Assembly (NCBI GenBank): GCA_018830405.1
Contig: JAHJSF010000126.1
Location: 1-18,933 of the forward strand
Origin: Nitrospinota bacterium
GTDB taxonomy: Bacteria > Nitrospinota > Nitrospinia > UBA9942 > JAHJSF01
Reading direction: 5' to 3'
Length of the DNA stretch: 18,933 nt
Numbering within the stretch: the first letter of the stretch is position 1; every line of letters starts with the position of its first letter. This document shows, in pieces, positions 912 to 10,976 of this stretch. The notes under the pieces are model-generated. The model did not search any database, was not told where the DNA came from, and saw nothing but the letters and a program-made list of their open reading frames with translations. A program made the translations under genes and the position numbers.

Positions 912-2684
912 TTGAAGACAAATATCCATAACAAAATTGCCGTTATTTTTATAACAATCACCGCCGCCATTCTTTTGGGGGTCTTTCTAAGCCTCAGCCA
1001 TAATCTGCAGGATTATACATACAACCGGATAAAAACCAATGTTACCAGGCAAATCAGGTTATCCAAATCATATATAGAGGATAACCCCTTAAACCGTATC
1101 AATTCCTACGATTCAGATTATATCGCCGATAAAATAGGAAAAGACCTAGACCTAAGGGTCACTATAATAGGCCTCGACGGAACTGTTTATGGCGACTCGG
1201 AGCTTGAGGGGAAAGAATTAATCAAGGTTGAAAATCACCTCTATCGGCCTGAGGTTCAGCAGGCCATTCAATCCGGTATTGGAGAAAGTAGGCGGTTCAG
1301 CACCACTATAAAAAAGGATTTTCTCTATATCGCCTCTCTGTTCAATAAGGGGGAGAAGAAAGGGATTATCCGTCTATCTATACCCCTTTCAGATATAGAA
1401 CATCTGTTGAACCGCCTGAGGTATACCCTCGCCACCTCCCTTTTAGCCGCCTTTATCCTATCCGCCCTGGTCAGTTATTCGGCCTCTTTATTTATCTCCC
1501 GCCCCATCAGAGAAATATCTCGGGCCGCCAAGGATATTGCCGATGGGGATTATTCAAAAAAGATATCACTCCGGTCGGAGGACGAGATAGGAGATTTGTC
1601 CTCTATCTTTAATCACATGGCCGGCCAGGTTAAATCACGCATCGGGGAGGTCAACGAAAGTAAGTCCCGCTTGGAGGCGGTATTGTTAAGCATGTTTGAA
1701 GGGGTCATGGTTGTTGATTCTAAAGGAAGTATCATATTAATCAATCAGCCCCTTAAAAATGTCCTCAAAATCGAGGAAGAACCATCAGGGAAAAGGCCGA
1801 TAGAGGCGATCCGCAATCTGCAAATACAGGAGATTGCCGACAATATTCTGCATACTAAGGAAGGGCTGATATCAGAGGAGATAACAATCCTCCTTCCGGT
1901 AGAAAAGACATTATTGGTCCATGCAACGCCGGTTAAAAAGGGGGGGAAGACGGAAGGGGCGGTTTTGGTTTTTCATGATGTAACAAACCTGAGAAGGCTT
2001 GAAAAGGTCAGGCAGGATTTTGTGGCCAATGTCTCCCATGAGCTAAGGACCCCTATTTCAAGTATCATCGGATATGCAGAAACCTTATTGGACGGGGCCT
2101 TAAGAGACGAAGAGAATGCTACCGATTTTCTTAATATTATCCTCACCGATTCCAACCGTTTAGCCACTTTAATAGATGATCTGCTAAGCCTAGCCAAAAT
2201 AGAATCCGGGAAAATCATGATGGAGAAGAGACCCTGTCAGCTCCTGCCGATAGCCGAGCAGGTTTTGGCCAGCCTTAAGGGGCACATAGAGGGGAAGGAA
2301 ATTAAAATCAAAATAGATATCCCTGAAAACATCCCAAGTGTCTCGGCCGATGAGACAAGGATAAAGCAGGTTTTGCTAAATCTTATCGACAATGCCGTAA
2401 AATATAATATTCAAGGAGGCAAGATATCTATATCGGCGGATGAAACAAATGATTCTGTTAAAGTAAATATCAGCGATACCGGTATCGGCATCCCCCGCAA
2501 AGACTTGCCCCGCCTGTTCGAGCGGTTTTACAGGGTAGACAAGGCCCGCTCCCGTGAATTGGGGGGAACAGGATTAGGTCTTTCGATTGTCAAACATATC
2601 ATCCACTCGCATAACGGCGAGGTATCGGTTCAAAGTGTAGAGGGGGAGGGGTCTACGTTCAGCTTCTCCCTCCCCAAGGCCTAA
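912..2684 (+). CDS. phoR: Phosphate regulon sensor histidine kinase PhoR
   Basis: PhoR is the inner-membrane kinase/phosphatase that controls PhoB. The 590-residue protein has a transmembrane segment near 8-28, an extracytoplasmic sensor region (about 30-168), a second transmembrane segment (about 170-195), a HAMP linker (about 193-247), a PAS domain (about 250-360), HisKA with phosphoacceptor H376 in VSHELRTP, and a HATPase domain with N-box N490/N494, DTGIGI at 522-527 and GGTGLGL at 551-557. The large periplasmic loop differs from E. coli PhoR, which lacks one, and resembles Bacillus-type and many non-gammaproteobacterial PhoR proteins. The start is TTG at 912, supported by AAGGAG at 899-904 in the phoB 3' end; no nearby ATG fits. 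The 2-bp gap to phoB implies co-transcription and probably coupled translation. Confidence 0.92.
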   Translation: MKTNIHNKIAVIFITITAAILLGVFLSLSHNLQDYTYNRIKTNVTRQIRLSKSYIEDNPLNRINSYDSDYIADKIGKDLDLRVTIIGLDGTVYGDSELEGKELIKVENHLYRPEVQQAIQSGIGESRRFSTTIKKDFLYIASLFNKGEKKGIIRLSIPLSDIEHLLNRLRYTLATSLLAAFILSALVSYSASLFISRPIREISRAAKDIADGDYSKKISLRSEDEIGDLSSIFNHMAGQVKSRIGEVNESKSRLEAVLLSMFEGVMVVDSKGSIILINQPLKNVLKIEEEPSGKRPIEAIRNLQIQEIADNILHTKEGLISEEITILLPVEKTLLVHATPVKKGGKTEGAVLVFHDVTNLRRLEKVRQDFVANVSHELRTPISSIIGYAETLLDGALRDEENATDFLNIILTDSNRLATLIDDLLSLAKIESGKIMMEKRPCQLLPIAEQVLASLKGHIEGKEIKIKIDIPENIPSVSADETRIKQVLLNLIDNAVKYNIQGGKISISADETNDSVKVNISDTGIGIPRKDLPRLFERFYRVDKARSRELGGTGLGLSIVKHIIHSHNGEVSVQSVEGEGSTFSFSLPKA

Positions 2685-2721
2685 TAAAAAGTCGCAACAT
2701 CTCAAATCAAAATTTGCCGAT

Positions 2722-2739
2722 TTGTCACCTGACTGTCAT
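2722..2739 (+). promoter_or_regulatory. Pho box 1 (PhoB binding site) downstream of phoR
   Basis: TTGTCAC at 2722-2728 and CTGTCAT at 2733-2739 are two 7-bp direct repeats separated by 4 bp. This is the canonical PhoB site architecture with 11-bp periodicity. The site lies 233 bp before the pstS ATG. Possible -10 elements downstream are TTAATA at 2746-2751 (close) and TATACT at 2761-2766 (far); neither has the ideal spacing of about 10 bp. If active, it would give a pstS leader of roughly 200 nt. Confidence 0.6.
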
Positions 2740-2917
2740 CTCTCCTTAATACCCCCTCTATATACTTTTTCTTGAAAGGATAAAAACAGAGAAAGGGGGT
2801 GAAGCGTATTTTGAATTTGAAAGTAGCAGGAAGATATTAAAAACATCTTTTAGATTACCTATTGTTTAAATTCTGTCCTAGGTTGGCGGAATATTAATTT
2901 ACACGGAAGTATCCTGT

Positions 2918-2935
2918 TTGTCACAAAGTTGTCAC
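2918..2935 (+). promoter_or_regulatory. Pho box 2, perfect TTGTCAC direct repeat upstream of pstS
   Basis: TTGTCAC at 2918-2924 is repeated exactly at 2929-2935 with a 4-bp AAAG spacer, giving the 11-bp periodicity of a PhoB site. A weak -10 (TAGCAT, 2946-2951) lies 10 bp after the box, the expected spacing when PhoB replaces the -35 element. The transcript would then start near the Shine-Dalgarno at 2958, leaving a very short leader. The upstream TTG that could extend the pstS frame is itself the first three bases of this box, which argues against that longer start. Confidence 0.7.
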
Positions 2936-2957
2936 ATTGAAATAGTAGCATGGTTCG

Positions 2958-2967
2958 AAAGGAGAAG
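2958..2967 (+). promoter_or_regulatory. Shine-Dalgarno that fixes the pstS start
   Basis: AAAGGAGAAG lies with its GGAG core 7 nt before ATG 2972. It selects this ATG over the in-frame TTG at 2918 and places the signal peptide at the N-terminus. Confidence 0.75.
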
Positions 2968-2971
2968 AATT

Positions 2972-3835
2972 ATGAAGAGGCATATTATAAAGTTGGTTTT
3001 GGTATTAACTATTTTGGGTTTTACCGCAACAAATATATTCGCTCAGGAAATGATTCAGATTAAGGGTTCAGATACCCTGATTAATCTTGTTCAGAAGTTA
3101 TCTGAGGTATATATGGAGAAACATCCTGGCGAATATATCGCAATAACCGGAGGGGGTTCAGGAACCGGCATTGCCGCCCTGATCAACGGCCAGTGCGATA
3201 TTGCCAACGCCTCTCGGGACATCAAGGAAAAAGAAGTCGCCCAAGCCAGGGAAAGGAATGTTGACCCGAAGAGCGTAGTCATCGCCATAGACGGACTGAG
3301 TGTAATCGTCAACAAAAGCAATAAAACGGATAAGCTGACGGTAGGCCAGATTGGACAGATCTTTCGTGGTGAGATTAGAAACTGGAAAGATGTCGGCGGA
3401 CAGGACAGCCCCATTACCCTTTATGGAAGACAATCAAATTCGGGGACATATATTTTCTTCATGGAAGAGGTTTTGAAGGGGGATTACTCTAACAAGATGA
3501 ACCACATGAATGGCAATGCCCAGATTGTCGAAGGGGTTAAGCATGACGCCACCGGTATCGGCTATGTTGGGGTAGGCTATGTAAAAGAGGTTAAAGGGAT
3601 CAATATTTTAAAGGTTGCCTCTGCCCCTAATGGATACTACTCCAGTCCTCTGAATACCCAAGATGTTAAAAGCGGTAAGTATCCTATCTCCCGCACCCTT
3701 AATCAGTATGTCAATGGTTCGCCCAAAGGGAAGGTTAAGGCCTTCATTGATTTTGAATTGAGTGCCGAGGGACAAAAGATTGTTGAGGAAGAAGGATTTT
3801 TCCCGGTTTCCAATATAGAGTTGCATTCAAAATGA
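2972..3835 (+). CDS. pstS: Phosphate-binding periplasmic protein PstS
   Basis: PstS captures inorganic phosphate in the periplasm and delivers it to the PstCA channel. From ATG 2972 the protein has 287 residues. It begins with a signal peptide: basic MKRH, then a hydrophobic core, with cleavage probably near the A/Q of IFAQE. The mature protein starts with the family motif IQIKGSDT and continues with GGGSGTG and SNSGTYIFF, which contribute phosphate-binding Ser/Thr/Asp residues. It is shorter than E. coli PstS and resembles the compact form found in many non-gammaproteobacteria. An in-frame TTG at 2918 would add 18 residues with no signal-peptide character and would lie inside the Pho box, so it was not chosen. 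The last four residues (LHSK) and the stop lie inside an interspersed repeat. Confidence 0.92.
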   Translation: MKRHIIKLVLVLTILGFTATNIFAQEMIQIKGSDTLINLVQKLSEVYMEKHPGEYIAITGGGSGTGIAALINGQCDIANASRDIKEKEVAQARERNVDPKSVVIAIDGLSVIVNKSNKTDKLTVGQIGQIFRGEIRNWKDVGGQDSPITLYGRQSNSGTYIFFMEEVLKGDYSNKMNHMNGNAQIVEGVKHDATGIGYVGVGYVKEVKGINILKVASAPNGYYSSPLNTQDVKSGKYPISRTLNQYVNGSPKGKVKAFIDFELSAEGQKIVEEEGFFPVSNIELHSK

Positions 3836-6420: not shown

Positions 6421-7107
6421 ATGAGAAGGCACTTCGACGAAGATTTGAAGGGATTGAATATGGATATCATAAAAATGGCCACCCTTGCGGAAGAGGCTAT
6501 TTTCAAATCTATAGAGGCCCTGAAAAACAGGGACAGGGGATTGGCAGAATCCGTTGTGCTGGGGGATGCCAAGATTAACGATTTGGAGCTGCTGATCGAG
6601 GAAAAGATTATCGACCTTCTGGCCTTAAGACAACCACTGGCCCGAGATCTGAGATTCTTAACCACCGGTATGAAAATAAATGCCGAACTGGAAAGAATAG
6701 CCGACCTCGCTTCAAACATAGCCCGAATGGTTATAGAGCTCGTGGATAAACCGATATTAAAGCCCCTTATCGATATCCCCAAATTAAGCGACGTGGCCAT
6801 TAAGATGGTCAAGGATAGTATCGATGCCTTTGTGGACAGTGATGAAAAATTGGCCAAAGAGGTCATGCTCTATGATTCCAGGGCAAACGCCCTAAGGAAT
6901 TTGATCCAGGAAGAGCTTATCAATGATTATATGAGTAAGGACGCCTCAACCGTAACCAGGGGCATCCCCCTTCTTCTGATTACCCGCTCTTTAGAGAGGA
7001 TCTGCGATCATGCCACTAACATCGCTGAAAACGTGGTTTATATGATTAATGCTAAGGTCTTACGGCATAATTATCAATACCTCGAGAATGATGCCGACAA
7101 AGAGTAG
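6421..7107 (+). CDS. phoU: Phosphate signalling protein PhoU
   Basis: PhoU is a cytoplasmic, membrane-associated helical protein that relays the state of the Pst transporter to PhoR and represses the regulon when phosphate is ample. The 228-residue protein has the expected tandem repeat of two three-helix bundles. Each repeat carries the metal-cluster motif E-x3-D-x3-N: ELERIADLASNIA (E91, D95, N99) and SLERICDHATNIAENV (E192, D196, N200). Length is typical. AAGGGGG just upstream supplies a ribosome binding site. It is the last gene of the pst operon. A modest stem without a clear U-run follows at 7115-7134. Confidence 0.94.
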   Translation: MRRHFDEDLKGLNMDIIKMATLAEEAIFKSIEALKNRDRGLAESVVLGDAKINDLELLIEEKIIDLLALRQPLARDLRFLTTGMKINAELERIADLASNIARMVIELVDKPILKPLIDIPKLSDVAIKMVKDSIDAFVDSDEKLAKEVMLYDSRANALRNLIQEELINDYMSKDASTVTRGIPLLLITRSLERICDHATNIAENVVYMINAKVLRHNYQYLENDADKE

Positions 7108-7114
7108 CCCACAA

Positions 7115-7134
7115 AAACCTTAACGAGAAGGTTT
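7115..7134 (+). terminator. Weak stem-loop after phoU
   Basis: AAACCTT (7115-7121) and AAGGTTT (7128-7134) form a 7-bp stem around a 6-nt loop. It is followed by CAATCTTTCTCC, which is U-rich but interrupted. It may be a weak terminator of the pst-phoU transcript, so read-through into the copper genes remains possible. Confidence 0.4.
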
Positions 7135-7158
7135 CAATCTTTCTCCTCCACGCAAATC

Positions 7159-7176
7159 TTCTATCTACTGATAGAA
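7159..7176. promoter_or_regulatory. Inverted repeat TTCTATC-N4-GATAGAA in the phoU-copB gap
   Basis: A perfect 7-bp dyad with a TACT centre lies 91 bp before the copper ATPase start. It could be an operator or a short RNA stem. A -35-like ATGACA (7176-7181) overlaps its right arm, but I see no convincing -10 at the right distance. Confidence 0.35.
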
Positions 7177-7233
7177 TGACAGGGGTAGATACCAACATGA
7201 CCAATAGCAATTCCTTCGTGGGAAGTAGAAGGG

Positions 7234-7249
7234 GATAAACACGTTTATC
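7234..7249. promoter_or_regulatory. Candidate operator: 16-bp dyad GATAAAC-AC-GTTTATC upstream of copB
   Basis: Two perfect 7-bp arms flank a 2-bp centre. The dyad ends 5 bp before the GGGAGG Shine-Dalgarno (7255-7260) of the copper ATPase gene. Position and symmetry fit a repressor operator for a dimeric regulator, perhaps copper-responsive. No regulator gene is nearby. It does not match the CopY cop box, as it lacks TACA-N2-TGTA. Confidence 0.45.
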
Positions 7250-7266
7250 AATATGGGAGGAAGCAG

Positions 7267-9309
7267 ATGGAACATATGAAGGAAGGCACTCATCACGAGG
7301 GACATAGGCATATGCCTGCTGAACACGGCGAACATGCCGGCGGGGGACACGCCTCTCATCATGCCCACATGGTAGCTGACTTTAAGAAGAGGTTCTGGAT
7401 ATCGTTGCTCCTTACCCTGCCAATAATAACTCTTTCGCCGATGATTCAAAAGTTTCTCGGGCTGGGGGAGGCTATAAAATTTCGGGGAGATTTATACCTT
7501 CTCTTCTTCCTTTCCACCGTGGTCTTCTTTTATGGGGGCTATCCTTTCCTCAAAGGGTTTTTTGAGGAAATAAAAAACAAACTACCCGGAATGATGACCC
7601 TTATTGCCGTAGCCATCACTACAGCCTATCTATACAGTAGTGCGGTTGTATTTGGACTTAGTGGAAAAATGTTTTTCTGGGAGCTGGTTACCCTCGTTGA
7701 CATTATGCTTCTTGGACACTGGATAGAGATGAAATCGGTCATGGGGGCATCACGGGCACTTGAAGAATTGGTCAAACTGATGCCACAGGATGCCCATAAA
7801 ATCATGCCGGATGGGAGCGTCAAAGATGTCCCTCTGAGCGAATTAGAGGTCGATGACAAAATTATTATAAAGCCGGGCGAAAAAATCCCCGCTGACGGAG
7901 ACATTATTGAAGGAACAAGTTCTGTCAATGAGGCTATGTTGACCGGAGAATCGAAGCCTGTATCAAAAAAAGAGGGGGGGAAGGTTATAGGAGGTTCAAT
8001 CAATGGTGAAGGGTCGCTGACCGTAGTTATCAAAAAAACAGGCAAGGACTCTTTTTTGTCGCAGATTATCAACCTAGTTCGGGAGGCCCAGCAGAGCAAG
8101 TCTAAAACACAGGATTTGGCCAATCGTACCGCTTTGTGGCTGACAATAATAGCCTTAAGCTGTGGGGCGTTAACGCTTTTTATATGGCTTTTCCTGATGA
8201 ATAAAGATTTTGCCTTTGCCCTTGAAAGGGCCGTAACGGTTATGGTCATCACCTGCCCTCACGCTTTAGGCTTGGCAGTTCCGCTTGTTGTGGCCGTTTC
8301 AACCGCTCTAGCCGCAGGGAACGGATTGCTGATACGAAATAGGGCGGCCTTTGAAAGGGCACGGAATATAGATGCCATAATATTCGACAAAACGGGAACT
8401 TTAACCGAAGGTAAATTTGGGGTTACAGATAAAATCATCCTTACCAACGACCTTAACGAGGAGGAACTTTTAAAATACGCCGCTTCGGTAGAGGCTCACT
8501 CCGAACATCCAATAGCCGCAGGGATAGTCTCCGCATCAGGGGAAACCTTTCCCGTTGAGGGATTCAGTGCCATAACAGGAAAAGGAGCCGAGGGGGTAGT
8601 CAATGGCAAAAATGTTAAGGTTGTCAGCCCCGGTTATCTGAGAGAAAAAAATATATCCGTGGATAATGAGAAAATAAAACAACTTTTCTCACAAGGCAAA
8701 ACGGTTGTATTTGTCATTATAAACGACCAGCTTCAGGGGGCTATCGCCCTGGCCGACATTATTAGACCGGAATCAAAGAAGGCTATTGAAATGTTCAGAG
8801 GTATGGGGATTAAGTGCATGATGCTGACCGGAGACAACAAACAGGTCGCCCAATGGGTCTCCGAAGAGATAGGTCTGGATGAGTATTTTGCCGAGGTATT
8901 ACCCCATGAAAAATCATCAAAAGTAAGGGAGATTCAAGAGAGGGGATTGATAGTCGCTATGACGGGGGACGGGGTTAACGATGCGCCAGCCCTAGCCCAA
9001 GCAGATGTGGGTATCGCCATTGGCGCAGGGACAGATGTGGCCGTAGAGACAGCCGATATTATTCTCGTTAAGAGCAACCCTCTTGATGCTGTGGCAATTA
9101 TTGGCCTTGCTAGGGCCACCTATAGAAAGATGATTCAAAATTTGGTATGGGCGACAGGATATAATGCCGTGGCTATTCCCCTCGCCGCGGGAGCCCTTTA
9201 TAAGTTTGGCATACTACTCAGTCCGGCTGTGGGGGCCGTCTTTATGTCTTTAAGCACGGTCATTGTTGCCGTCAATGCCCGTTTTCTGAGACTTCCAAAA
9301 CAGGAGTAA
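7267..9309 (+). CDS. copB: Copper-translocating P1B-type ATPase, CopB-like (CPH subgroup)
   Basis: This inner-membrane pump exports copper ions using ATP. The 680-residue protein starts with about 35 residues rich in His, Met and Gly and lacks an HMA metal-binding domain, as is normal for CopB-type pumps. Visible catalytic elements are actuator motif LTGES (225-229), metal-site CPH at 330-332 in the sixth predicted span, phosphorylated D374 in DKTGTLTEG, H414/P415 of the SEHP motif, MLTGDN, and GDGVNDAP (567-574). CPH rather than CPC places it in subgroup P1B-3, described for Cu(II)/Cu(I). GGGAGGAAG lies just before the ATG. A small Met-rich membrane protein follows 62 bp later. Substrate preference is inferred from the motif class. 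Confidence 0.88.
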   Translation: MEHMKEGTHHEGHRHMPAEHGEHAGGGHASHHAHMVADFKKRFWISLLLTLPIITLSPMIQKFLGLGEAIKFRGDLYLLFFLSTVVFFYGGYPFLKGFFEEIKNKLPGMMTLIAVAITTAYLYSSAVVFGLSGKMFFWELVTLVDIMLLGHWIEMKSVMGASRALEELVKLMPQDAHKIMPDGSVKDVPLSELEVDDKIIIKPGEKIPADGDIIEGTSSVNEAMLTGESKPVSKKEGGKVIGGSINGEGSLTVVIKKTGKDSFLSQIINLVREAQQSKSKTQDLANRTALWLTIIALSCGALTLFIWLFLMNKDFAFALERAVTVMVITCPHALGLAVPLVVAVSTALAAGNGLLIRNRAAFERARNIDAIIFDKTGTLTEGKFGVTDKIILTNDLNEEELLKYAASVEAHSEHPIAAGIVSASGETFPVEGFSAITGKGAEGVVNGKNVKVVSPGYLREKNISVDNEKIKQLFSQGKTVVFVIINDQLQGAIALADIIRPESKKAIEMFRGMGIKCMMLTGDNKQVAQWVSEEIGLDEYFAEVLPHEKSSKVREIQERGLIVAMTGDGVNDAPALAQADVGIAIGAGTDVAVETADIILVKSNPLDAVAIIGLARATYRKMIQNLVWATGYNAVAIPLAAGALYKFGILLSPAVGAVFMSLSTVIVAVNARFLRLPKQE

Positions 9310-9314
9310 ATTGG

Positions 9315-9323
9315 TGATATAAT
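9315..9323 (+). promoter_or_regulatory. Extended -10 promoter candidate before the small copper-locus gene
   Basis: TGATATAAT gives a perfect TATAAT (9318-9323) preceded by the TGn extension. Such promoters can work without a good -35, and none is evident here. It lies just after the copB stop and 48 bp before the small ORF, so that gene may have its own transcript as well as copB read-through. Confidence 0.45.
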
Positions 9324-9371
9324 GCGGGCATAAACAATGTATCTGGTAAACCTAAAACGGGGAGGGGTAAA

Positions 9372-9515
9372 ATGGGATATATGGCCGGCGGGGAACATAT
9401 GATGGGTGGCGGTTCTATGTTAGTAGGCGGTGCGGTTTTTGTCTGGTTTATCGTTTTCACGGTATTGGTAGTTCTGAAATTAGACAGGATTGTCAAACTC
9501 CTTGAAAAGGAATAG
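9372..9515 (+). CDS. Small Met/His/Gly-rich single-span membrane protein, copper-locus associated
   Basis: This 47-residue gene is too short for most automatic length cutoffs. The N-terminus reads MGYMAGGEHMMGGGSM, with five methionines and one histidine in 16 residues, a composition suited to soft-metal binding. A hydrophobic span follows (about residues 17-36, LVGGAVFVWFIVFTVLVVLK), then a charged tail LDRIVKLLEKE. GGGGAGGGG at about 9359-9367 is an excellent Shine-Dalgarno 4-5 nt before ATG 9372. An extended -10 promoter lies upstream and a strong terminator 29 bp downstream, so it is bracketed as a real gene. I do not recognise a named family. A role as accessory subunit or metal-handling partner of the adjacent copper ATPase is inference from composition and position. 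Confidence 0.75.
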   Translation: MGYMAGGEHMMGGGSMLVGGAVFVWFIVFTVLVVLKLDRIVKLLEKE

Positions 9516-9543
9516 GGATTTCCACAACCCGCATTAAAATACC

Positions 9544-9583
9544 AAAAAACGTGGAGAGGGATTCACCCCCCTCTACGTTTTTT
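9544..9583 (+). terminator. Strong intrinsic terminator ending the copper unit
   Basis: AAAAAACGTGG at the left pairs with the ACGTTTTTT right side through a G/C-rich upper stem (GAGAGGG with CCCCTCT, one mismatch). The right arm ends in a run of six T. The A-run at the left could also let it act for transcription from the opposite strand. Confidence 0.8.
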
Positions 9584-9632
9584 GCTTCAATAAATCGCCG
9601 TTGCTCTGGTTATAAATTAGGATAGTTTTTAA

Positions 9633-10976
9633 GTGTCAATAAGATTAAATAGTTCCAAAAAATCACCCAGACTGGTCTACATAAAGACCTTCGGCTGTCA
9701 GATGAATAACTATGACTCCGAAATAATGGCCGGGGTGTTGACCGCTCACGGGCATAAAATGACAGATAATCCCTCCGAGGCGGATATTATACTCCTGAAT
9801 ACCTGCAGCATAAGGGATAAGGCGGAACAGAAGGTCTATAGCCAGGTTGGCCGGTACCGACCCTACAAGGATAAGAATCAAAACCTTATCATCGGTGTAG
9901 GTGGCTGTGTCGGGCAGTTGGTTGGGAATGATATTCTTAAAAAGGCCCCTCTGATAGACCTGGTATTCGGAACATCAAACATAGATAAACTCCCACAGTT
10001 TCTAGATTACATAAATTACAGTGGAGAGAGAATCAGCCGTATAGATAAAGCAGAGGAGTGGACCGACAAAGATATCCCAATCTCCCGTAATACAACCAAG
10101 AGCGGCTGGGTATCTATAATGCGCGGCTGTAACAACTTCTGCGCCTACTGTGTCGTCCCCTACGCCAGAGGGCGGGAAAGAAGCCGGGCTCACCAAGATA
10201 TTTTAAAAGAGATAGAAGAGTTGGTCCGGTCGGGACATAGTGAGGTTACGCTTCTTGGCCAAAACGTCAATTCTTACGGGAAAGGCAAGGAAGATGAGAT
10301 TTCCTTCCCACAACTCCTAAGGTTAGCTAATCAGATAGAAGGTATTGAGAGGATCAGGTTTGTAACCTCTCATCCGAAAGATTTTTCTCCCGAGCTGGTT
10401 GAGGCTATGAAACTTGAGAAGATTTGCGAAACAATCCACCTCCCCCTCCAATCAGGTTCAGACCATATCCTTAATAGGATGAACCGGGGATATACGGCTA
10501 CTCAATATAGGTCTAAGGTAGATATGGCCAGAAGGGAGATTGCCGGGCTTACCATAACAACAGATATCATTGTCGGATTTCCGGGGGAGACGGAGGAAGA
10601 TTTTGCCAAGACCAGGGATATGGTCAAAGAGATAGGGTATGACAGCATGTTTCTCTTCAAATACTCGGTTCGTCCGGGAACTGCCGCGGCTGATTTTGAC
10701 CAACAGATAGATGAGAAGACGAAACAGAAACGCCTTGAAGAGATATTGAATATACAGAATCAGATTACTCTCGAAAAAAACCGGGCCTATGAGGGGAAAG
10801 TTGTAGAGGTTATGGTTGAGGGGCCAAGTCAGGACAAAAAAGACATAATGATAGGCAAAACAAGGGGGAATAAGGTTGTCCTTTTCCCGTCTGCCGACGG
10901 GATCAGAGAAGGTGATTTGATTAAGATTAAAATTGATAAGGGGAGGCTATACGGGCTGGACGGCGAAGTTGCCTAA
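9633..10976 (+). CDS. miaB: tRNA-2-methylthio-N6-dimethylallyladenosine synthase MiaB
   Basis: MiaB is a radical-SAM methylthiotransferase that converts i6A to ms2i6A at position 37 of tRNAs reading U-starting codons. The 447-residue protein has the N-terminal UPF0004 domain with three Fe-S cysteines, C22 (FGCQMNNYDSE), C58 (NTCSIRDKA) and C92 (GGCVGQ). The radical-SAM domain has the CxxxCxxC motif C166/C170/C173, followed by PYARGRERSR. A C-terminal TRAM domain covers about residues 380-446. NTCSIRDKAEQK and YARGRERS favour MiaB over MtaB or RimO. The start is GTG at 9633 with a weak TAGGAT site at 9618-9623. The first internal Met is within the catalytic N-terminus, so a non-ATG start is needed. 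It follows the copper-unit terminator and precedes a nitroreductase 26 bp downstream. Confidence 0.93.
   Translation: MSIRLNSSKKSPRLVYIKTFGCQMNNYDSEIMAGVLTAHGHKMTDNPSEADIILLNTCSIRDKAEQKVYSQVGRYRPYKDKNQNLIIGVGGCVGQLVGNDILKKAPLIDLVFGTSNIDKLPQFLDYINYSGERISRIDKAEEWTDKDIPISRNTTKSGWVSIMRGCNNFCAYCVVPYARGRERSRAHQDILKEIEELVRSGHSEVTLLGQNVNSYGKGKEDEISFPQLLRLANQIEGIERIRFVTSHPKDFSPELVEAMKLEKICETIHLPLQSGSDHILNRMNRGYTATQYRSKVDMARREIAGLTITTDIIVGFPGETEEDFAKTRDMVKEIGYDSMFLFKYSVRPGTAAADFDQQIDEKTKQKRLEEILNIQNQITLEKNRAYEGKVVEVMVEGPSQDKKDIMIGKTRGNKVVLFPSADGIREGDLIKIKIDKGRLYGLDGEVA

Follow-up and report, generated by a model that had tools for sequence, protein, structure and literature searches.

SilE and PcoE are Met/His-rich sponges. 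To our knowledge, few one-span small proteins are known to work with transporters, and most of these come from E. coli and Salmonella; KdpF is encoded together with its transporter. Membrane transporters are the targets of AcrZ (49 aa) and MgtS (31 aa) (PMC10710835). The copper ATPases of the P1B-3 or CopB type are marked by a His-rich N-terminus and by CPH in the transmembrane domain (PMC5552934). For CusF, a Cu(I)-tryptophan contact is mentioned in the passage of PMC10656224 that cites Loftin et al. 2009.

We have analysed a stretch of 18,933 nucleotides from a Nitrospinota bacterium (the window), in which a gene for a 47-residue miniprotein (MGYMAGGEHMMGGGSMLVGGAVFVWFIVFTVLVVLKLDRIVKLLEKE, ATG start) lies directly behind an ATPase gene (Table 1). 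This ATPase has a His/Met-rich N-terminus and CPH in its transmembrane domain (VITCPHALGLA), as expected of a P1B-3 pump. On the one hand, the miniprotein resembles the CusF/SilF chaperones and SilE/PcoE in that Met, His and aromatic residues stand close together in a copper-export cluster. These proteins are soluble and periplasmic, whereas the window protein is a peptide anchored in the membrane, and no homology between it and them was detected; Pfam found no CusF domain in it, and a single membrane helix stands in place of the soluble CusF domain. On the reading favoured below, the miniprotein would be a membrane-tethered counterpart of the periplasmic copper handling of the CusF/SilE type. 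On the other hand, it shares a length of about 30-50 aa and one span with KdpF, MgtS/MgtU and AcrZ, but differs from them in its Met-rich exposed start, its conserved charged tail and its persistence without a pump, and no sequence relation to them was found. The SHOCT (PF09851) proteins near CopB likewise have a Met/His/Gly/Trp-rich N-terminus and one span, and stand beside CopB in several of 80 loci. However, they end in a SHOCT tail of about 27 aa instead of LDKIxxLLxKK and are not matched by the family profile, and Pfam found no SHOCT motif in the miniprotein.

Table 1. Features of the CopB-miniprotein locus in the window
Feature	Position	Strand	Basis
CopB-type (P1B-3-like) copper ATPase	7267..9309	+	TIGR01511 E 7e-189; E1-E2_ATPase, Hydrolase
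Extended -10-like TGATATAAT, possible own promoter	9315..9323	+	In the 62-nt copB-miniprotein gap
Shine-Dalgarno GGAGG	9361..9365	+	6 nt 5' of the miniprotein ATG
47-residue miniprotein gene	9372..9515	+	Sequence, homologues, dN/dS
Codons 1-16, Met/His/Gly-rich N-terminus, predicted outside	9372..9419	+	No K/R; positive-inside rule
Codons 17-36, single transmembrane span	9420..9479	+	AlphaFold2 helix
Codons 36-47, conserved amphipathic tail K-L-D-[KR]-I-x-x-L-L-E-K, predicted cytoplasmic	9477..9512	+	Alignments
Intrinsic terminator-like hairpin and T run, near-symmetrical on both strands	~9544..9584	+	Terminator scan

The original prediction described a small membrane protein with a Shine-Dalgarno sequence, a Met/His-rich start, one hydrophobic span and a following terminator, and each of these elements was recovered. 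The first 16 residues hold five Met and one His (M1, M4, H10, M11, M12 and M16), and the homologues carry aggaggtg or ggaggtgt at the equivalent upstream position, so the Shine-Dalgarno sequence is conserved. The region 9000-9800 gave five terminator-like matches where 0.8 would be expected, and the hairpin behind the gene accounts for four of them. The predicted extended -10 is present as an exact match that occurs only once in the window, but chance alone would give about one per 18.9 kb, and a paired -35 was looked for and not found. Accordingly, this motif is weak evidence when taken alone, and an own promoter is no more likely than co-transcription with the ATPase gene, since the equivalent gap in L057, a locus of the UBA6262 lineage, is only 25 nt.

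Homologues were sought around the 80 ATPases most similar to that of the window and then with a profile grown from L057, which gave the first clear homologue, directly behind CopB (E 1.5e-8, 51% identity by alignment). Six clear relatives were found, all from Omnitrophota and the UBA6262 lineage. The closest is that of L217 (genome G749), which is 66% identical to the window miniprotein, followed by L218 (G771, 62%), L196 and L057 (47-51%) and L172 (43%). The family profile matched 36 of 285 Omnitrophota genomes at E 0.01 and 37 of 384 at E 0.001, the weakest of these being unsure, as well as two of the five genomes of the UBA6262 phylum. In 345 Nitrospirota genomes there was one weak match (E 0.005). 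Within the window's phylum, no credible homologue came from pairwise or profile searches, and its 76 other genomes lack the miniprotein; a plasmid search with the miniprotein gave no match.

The family is under purifying selection. dN/dS was 0.09 between L057 (G079) and L196 (G389), 0.11 between L217 and L218 and 0.15 between the window and L217, and for L057 and L196 none of 5000 random mutation sets had as few amino-acid changes as were observed. Considering that these ratios are well under 1, the frame at this position is no chance ORF; it is a real gene with codon-level conservation across phyla. The refuting condition named in the original prediction, that relatives would not conserve the frame, therefore does not hold once other phyla are compared. 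The suspicion that such a protein is easily missed thus proved justified, as this one is conserved, has homologues in other phyla and was overlooked.

No fitting family was found in Pfam, NCBIfam or PHROGs, in line with the original remark that no named family was known. The last 12 residues of the miniprotein are similar to those of DUF4083 (PF13314). Membership was rejected, because the match covers the tail only and reaches 12.7 bits (E 0.13) against a cut-off of 25.4 bits; the best E among six A3 family members was 0.03. Pairwise matches in 60 relatives (E 0.05-1) were set aside as compositional, being mostly a single match that recurs within frames of about 700 codons, with NCBIfam naming FlhA for the same residues, and a Pfam match to Renin_r in two members (E 7e-4) was rejected as a match of the hydrophobic span. 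A literature search of partial coverage found no account of a Met-rich family with the LDKI tail. This conserved protein is apparently undescribed.

In terms of architecture, AlphaFold2, run on nine aligned sequences, gave one helix over residues 11-45, with a block-mean pLDDT of 90-95 across the span and of 53 for the loose residues 1-10. All six members with copper, YHS or DUF302 neighbours lack K/R before the span, and the tail is net positive in five of these six; by a count beginning late in the tail, those of the window and L172 are neutral. This charge distribution suggests that the N-terminus lies outside and the C-terminus inside. After the single span comes the core W-x3-F-[TS]-x-L-V-x2-[KR]-[LM]-D-[KR]-I-x2-L-L-x-K, which is common to all members but has drifted somewhat in the remotest rows; the window miniprotein has both the span and the W...LDKI-type core.

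Judged by their sequences, the members fall into two branches, one Met-rich (with starts such as MWGHMAGEGYMMGG... and MWGHMGSQGINMGYG...), which includes the window miniprotein, and one Met-poor. The miniprotein lies directly 3' of CopB in four genomes of three phyla, namely in the window (62 nt gap) and in three genomes of two other phyla (L057, L196 and L218). In L057, a CusB-type protein with a heavy-metal-binding domain, CusA, a YHS-CopB, the miniprotein and a YHS and cupredoxin protein with a leader-like start follow each other, and L196 keeps the order of CusA, YHS-CopB, miniprotein and YHS. The order is YHS-CopB, miniprotein and DUF302 in L218, and miniprotein and DUF302 in L217, while the miniprotein of L172 follows a gene like YHS-thioredoxin-reductase. 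The window thus shows a copper-gene neighbourhood as well; the exception is the Met-rich member L219 of genome G774, which has no copper neighbour. At least two extra Met residues precede the span in 6/6 members with a copper, YHS or DUF302 context and in 3/20 others (Fisher p 4e-4, only a guide because the assignment of groups followed inspection of the data and involves related rows). The original association with a copper pump therefore holds for the Met-rich form in several genomes, but does not extend to CopB loci in general, with one instance among the 80 closest. As a separate observation, phoU lies directly 5' of copB in the window (6421-9309) and also a few kb from the copper cassette of L057 (L057:11753-12013), possibly by coincidence.

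The sister branch matches the Met-rich one in its membrane helix and LDKIxxLLxKK tail, but its members usually begin without the Met-rich segment (e.g. with MGYGLSFIGGLISLALT). In Omnitrophota, its genes are found mostly before rpsO-pnp-ftsK, often after a gene like a GGQ release factor, and the remaining members adjoin nth-like and dinB- or RmuC-like genes, all names being given by reading of the sequences. No copper link is visible in the genes neighbouring the Met-poor loci. The Met-poor family looks unrelated to copper, and since helix and tail persist across the wider family even where Met is lacking, copper need not be part of the core function. Two side observations concern Omnitrophota. 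The Met-poor miniproteins kept just before rpsO-pnp-ftsK (L173-L175, L177, L178, L183, L184, L187 and L188) represent a small gene in a core housekeeping locus. Cys/Met-rich variants occur in L176, L189 and L190 (MMCPTMGSGCSMSYFM..., MMCPFTDKALYM... and MNCPIFALGKHSLCF...), two of them near nth-like genes.

The relation between miniprotein and pump is a loose one. Among the 80 closest CopB loci, 79 have no adjacent miniprotein. L056, whose ATPase belongs to the same clade as that of the window, has none beside it either. The closest CopB proteins within the phylum (G053 and G021, 65-68%) also have no miniprotein behind them, which gives no sign that the adjacency is ancestral there. In L217 (Omnitrophota), CopB is reduced to its last 12 codons (VAINARFLKINK, L217:6434-6469; 11 of 12 residues identical to L057) directly before an intact miniprotein-DUF302 pair. 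No CopB-like ATPase match was found in genome G749, which contains a 1.14-Mb contig, so the job of the miniprotein in this genome may not be copper. In L218 (Omnitrophota, reverse strand), an IS3-type element at 2085-3235, in turned orientation, splits CopB and leaves the miniprotein intact. The comparison of these two genomes still shows constraint on the miniprotein and on the adjacent DUF302 gene.

With regard to origin, a mis-binned contig was considered and rejected, because PyrG encoded on the window contig has its best matches within its own order (69-70%), ahead of Omnitrophota and UBA6262 (59-62%). On the ATPase tree, one clade with good support (99/91) unites the sequences of the window, L055, L056, L057 and L196; that of L218 stands elsewhere on a long branch, and therefore the miniprotein was joined to CopB on two ATPase branches. 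The window ATPase groups with those of UBA6262 and Omnitrophota, not with the in-phylum ATPase on the tree. In the simplest reading of these sequences, the copB-miniprotein cassette was transferred into the lineage of the window.

Considering composition and genomic context, we infer that the miniprotein probably helps to handle copper at the membrane surface. The reading that it is a membrane-tethered, outward-facing accessory that binds Cu(I) is one to which we give not quite even chances, and we favour it over that of an obligate regulatory subunit, which we regard as unlikely. The original prediction put forward a regulatory or metal-loading subunit. As a regulatory or stabilising subunit, the miniprotein would pack its helix on the membrane domain of CopB, in the way of KdpF, MgtS/MgtU or AcrZ with their transporters, and tune its activity or shield the pump from FtsH. 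The position directly behind CopB in the four genomes and on both ATPase branches fits such a role, as do the size and the single helix, which resemble AcrZ and MgtS, and the CusA genes of the UBA6262 cassettes would even allow an AcrZ-like belt on the RND pump. The adjacency to the pump has thus been borne out, but the subunit claim finds only partial support, since the miniprotein is rare at CopB loci and absent from the other genomes of its phylum, its sister family has the same helix and no pump neighbour, and it remains intact where CopB is deleted or interrupted. This survival argues against an obligate subunit and fits pump-independent copper binding better; it weighs against the subunit role and does no more, because the constraint may in large part be older than the losses.

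A general small membrane protein outside copper biology, such as a scaffold or stress peptide, appears improbable to us. Its place in the cassette would then come from hitch-hiking or shared promoters and its Met-rich start would be incidental, for which the rpsO-pnp-ftsK and nth-like neighbours of the wider Omnitrophota family, the contexts without CopB in G774 and G749 and the frequency of Met/Gly-rich starts in small membrane proteins can be adduced. However, the linkage to CopB, YHS and DUF302 genes recurs across separate genomes and phyla, and Met-richness tracks it. That the frame is a chance or decaying ORF is extremely improbable; its absence from the other 76 genomes and a promoter match no better than chance across the window would suit such an ORF, but the 66% identical homologue in another phylum, the dN/dS of 0.15 over that distance and the conserved Shine-Dalgarno sequence speak against it, and codon-level conservation already refutes it.

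For the tethered Cu(I)-binding accessory, the following mechanism can be proposed. The miniprotein of the Met-rich branch would be a small single-span protein of the inner membrane, with its N-terminus out and its C-terminus in as judged from charge, made within a copper-efflux cassette headed by the CopB-type ATPase. With its flexible N-terminal segment of Met, His and aromatic residues (MGYM...HMMGGG in the window, MWGHM...MMGG in relatives), it would bind Cu(I) on the outward side of the inner membrane and take or buffer the copper delivered by CopB. The Cu(I) could then be held for, or passed to, CusBA or the YHS/cupredoxin proteins. The conserved helix and LDKIxxLLxKK tail would anchor the miniprotein and probably mediate association with itself or a partner. 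More speculatively, and with appreciable doubt on our part, an unnamed family of membrane peptides of about 40-56 residues may have had one branch that gained the Met/His/aromatic outer segment and became a tethered Cu(I) relay from CopB to CusBA/YHS/cupredoxin; this branch would have moved with the pump among Omnitrophota, UBA6262 and the window's phylum and stayed useful after pump loss.

Other small proteins are also found beside CopB. Within 1 kb of the 80 CopB genes, same-strand ORFs that are small, one-span and Met/His/Gly/Trp-rich had a density of 9.9 per 100 kb, versus 2.5 at a distance of 2.5-5 kb; the raw count is noisy, given that the density on the opposite strand was 6.6 in the nearer zone. 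Met/Gly/Trp-rich one-span SHOCT-like proteins lie within 1 kb of CopB in L077, L095, L097, L100, L110, L111, L118, L122 and L134. SHOCT was confirmed by Pfam in all four long-tailed ORFs tested, which are unrelated in sequence to the window miniprotein. These companions stand outside the family profile, which suggests repeated recruitment of similar companions. A still smaller type of about 36 aa (MMNHxGGWMGGGMWxWTVIGVL...) lies beside CopB in L074:4673-4783, L105:7204-7365, L081 and L108, with hosts in Acidobacteriota, Lentisphaerota and Betaproteobacteria; it has no Pfam family, and L105 matched only DUF4064 at E 0.02.

In summary, unrelated Met/Gly/Trp-rich one-span proteins beside CopB suggest a recurring need for such companions. 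The natural deletion of CopB and its interruption by an IS beside an intact miniprotein offer a way to separate the role of the miniprotein from that of the pump. Our study indicates that a selected, copper-linked family of uncultured phyla that has no entry in Pfam, NCBIfam or PHROGs is a testable candidate for a membrane copper relay or pump modulator.
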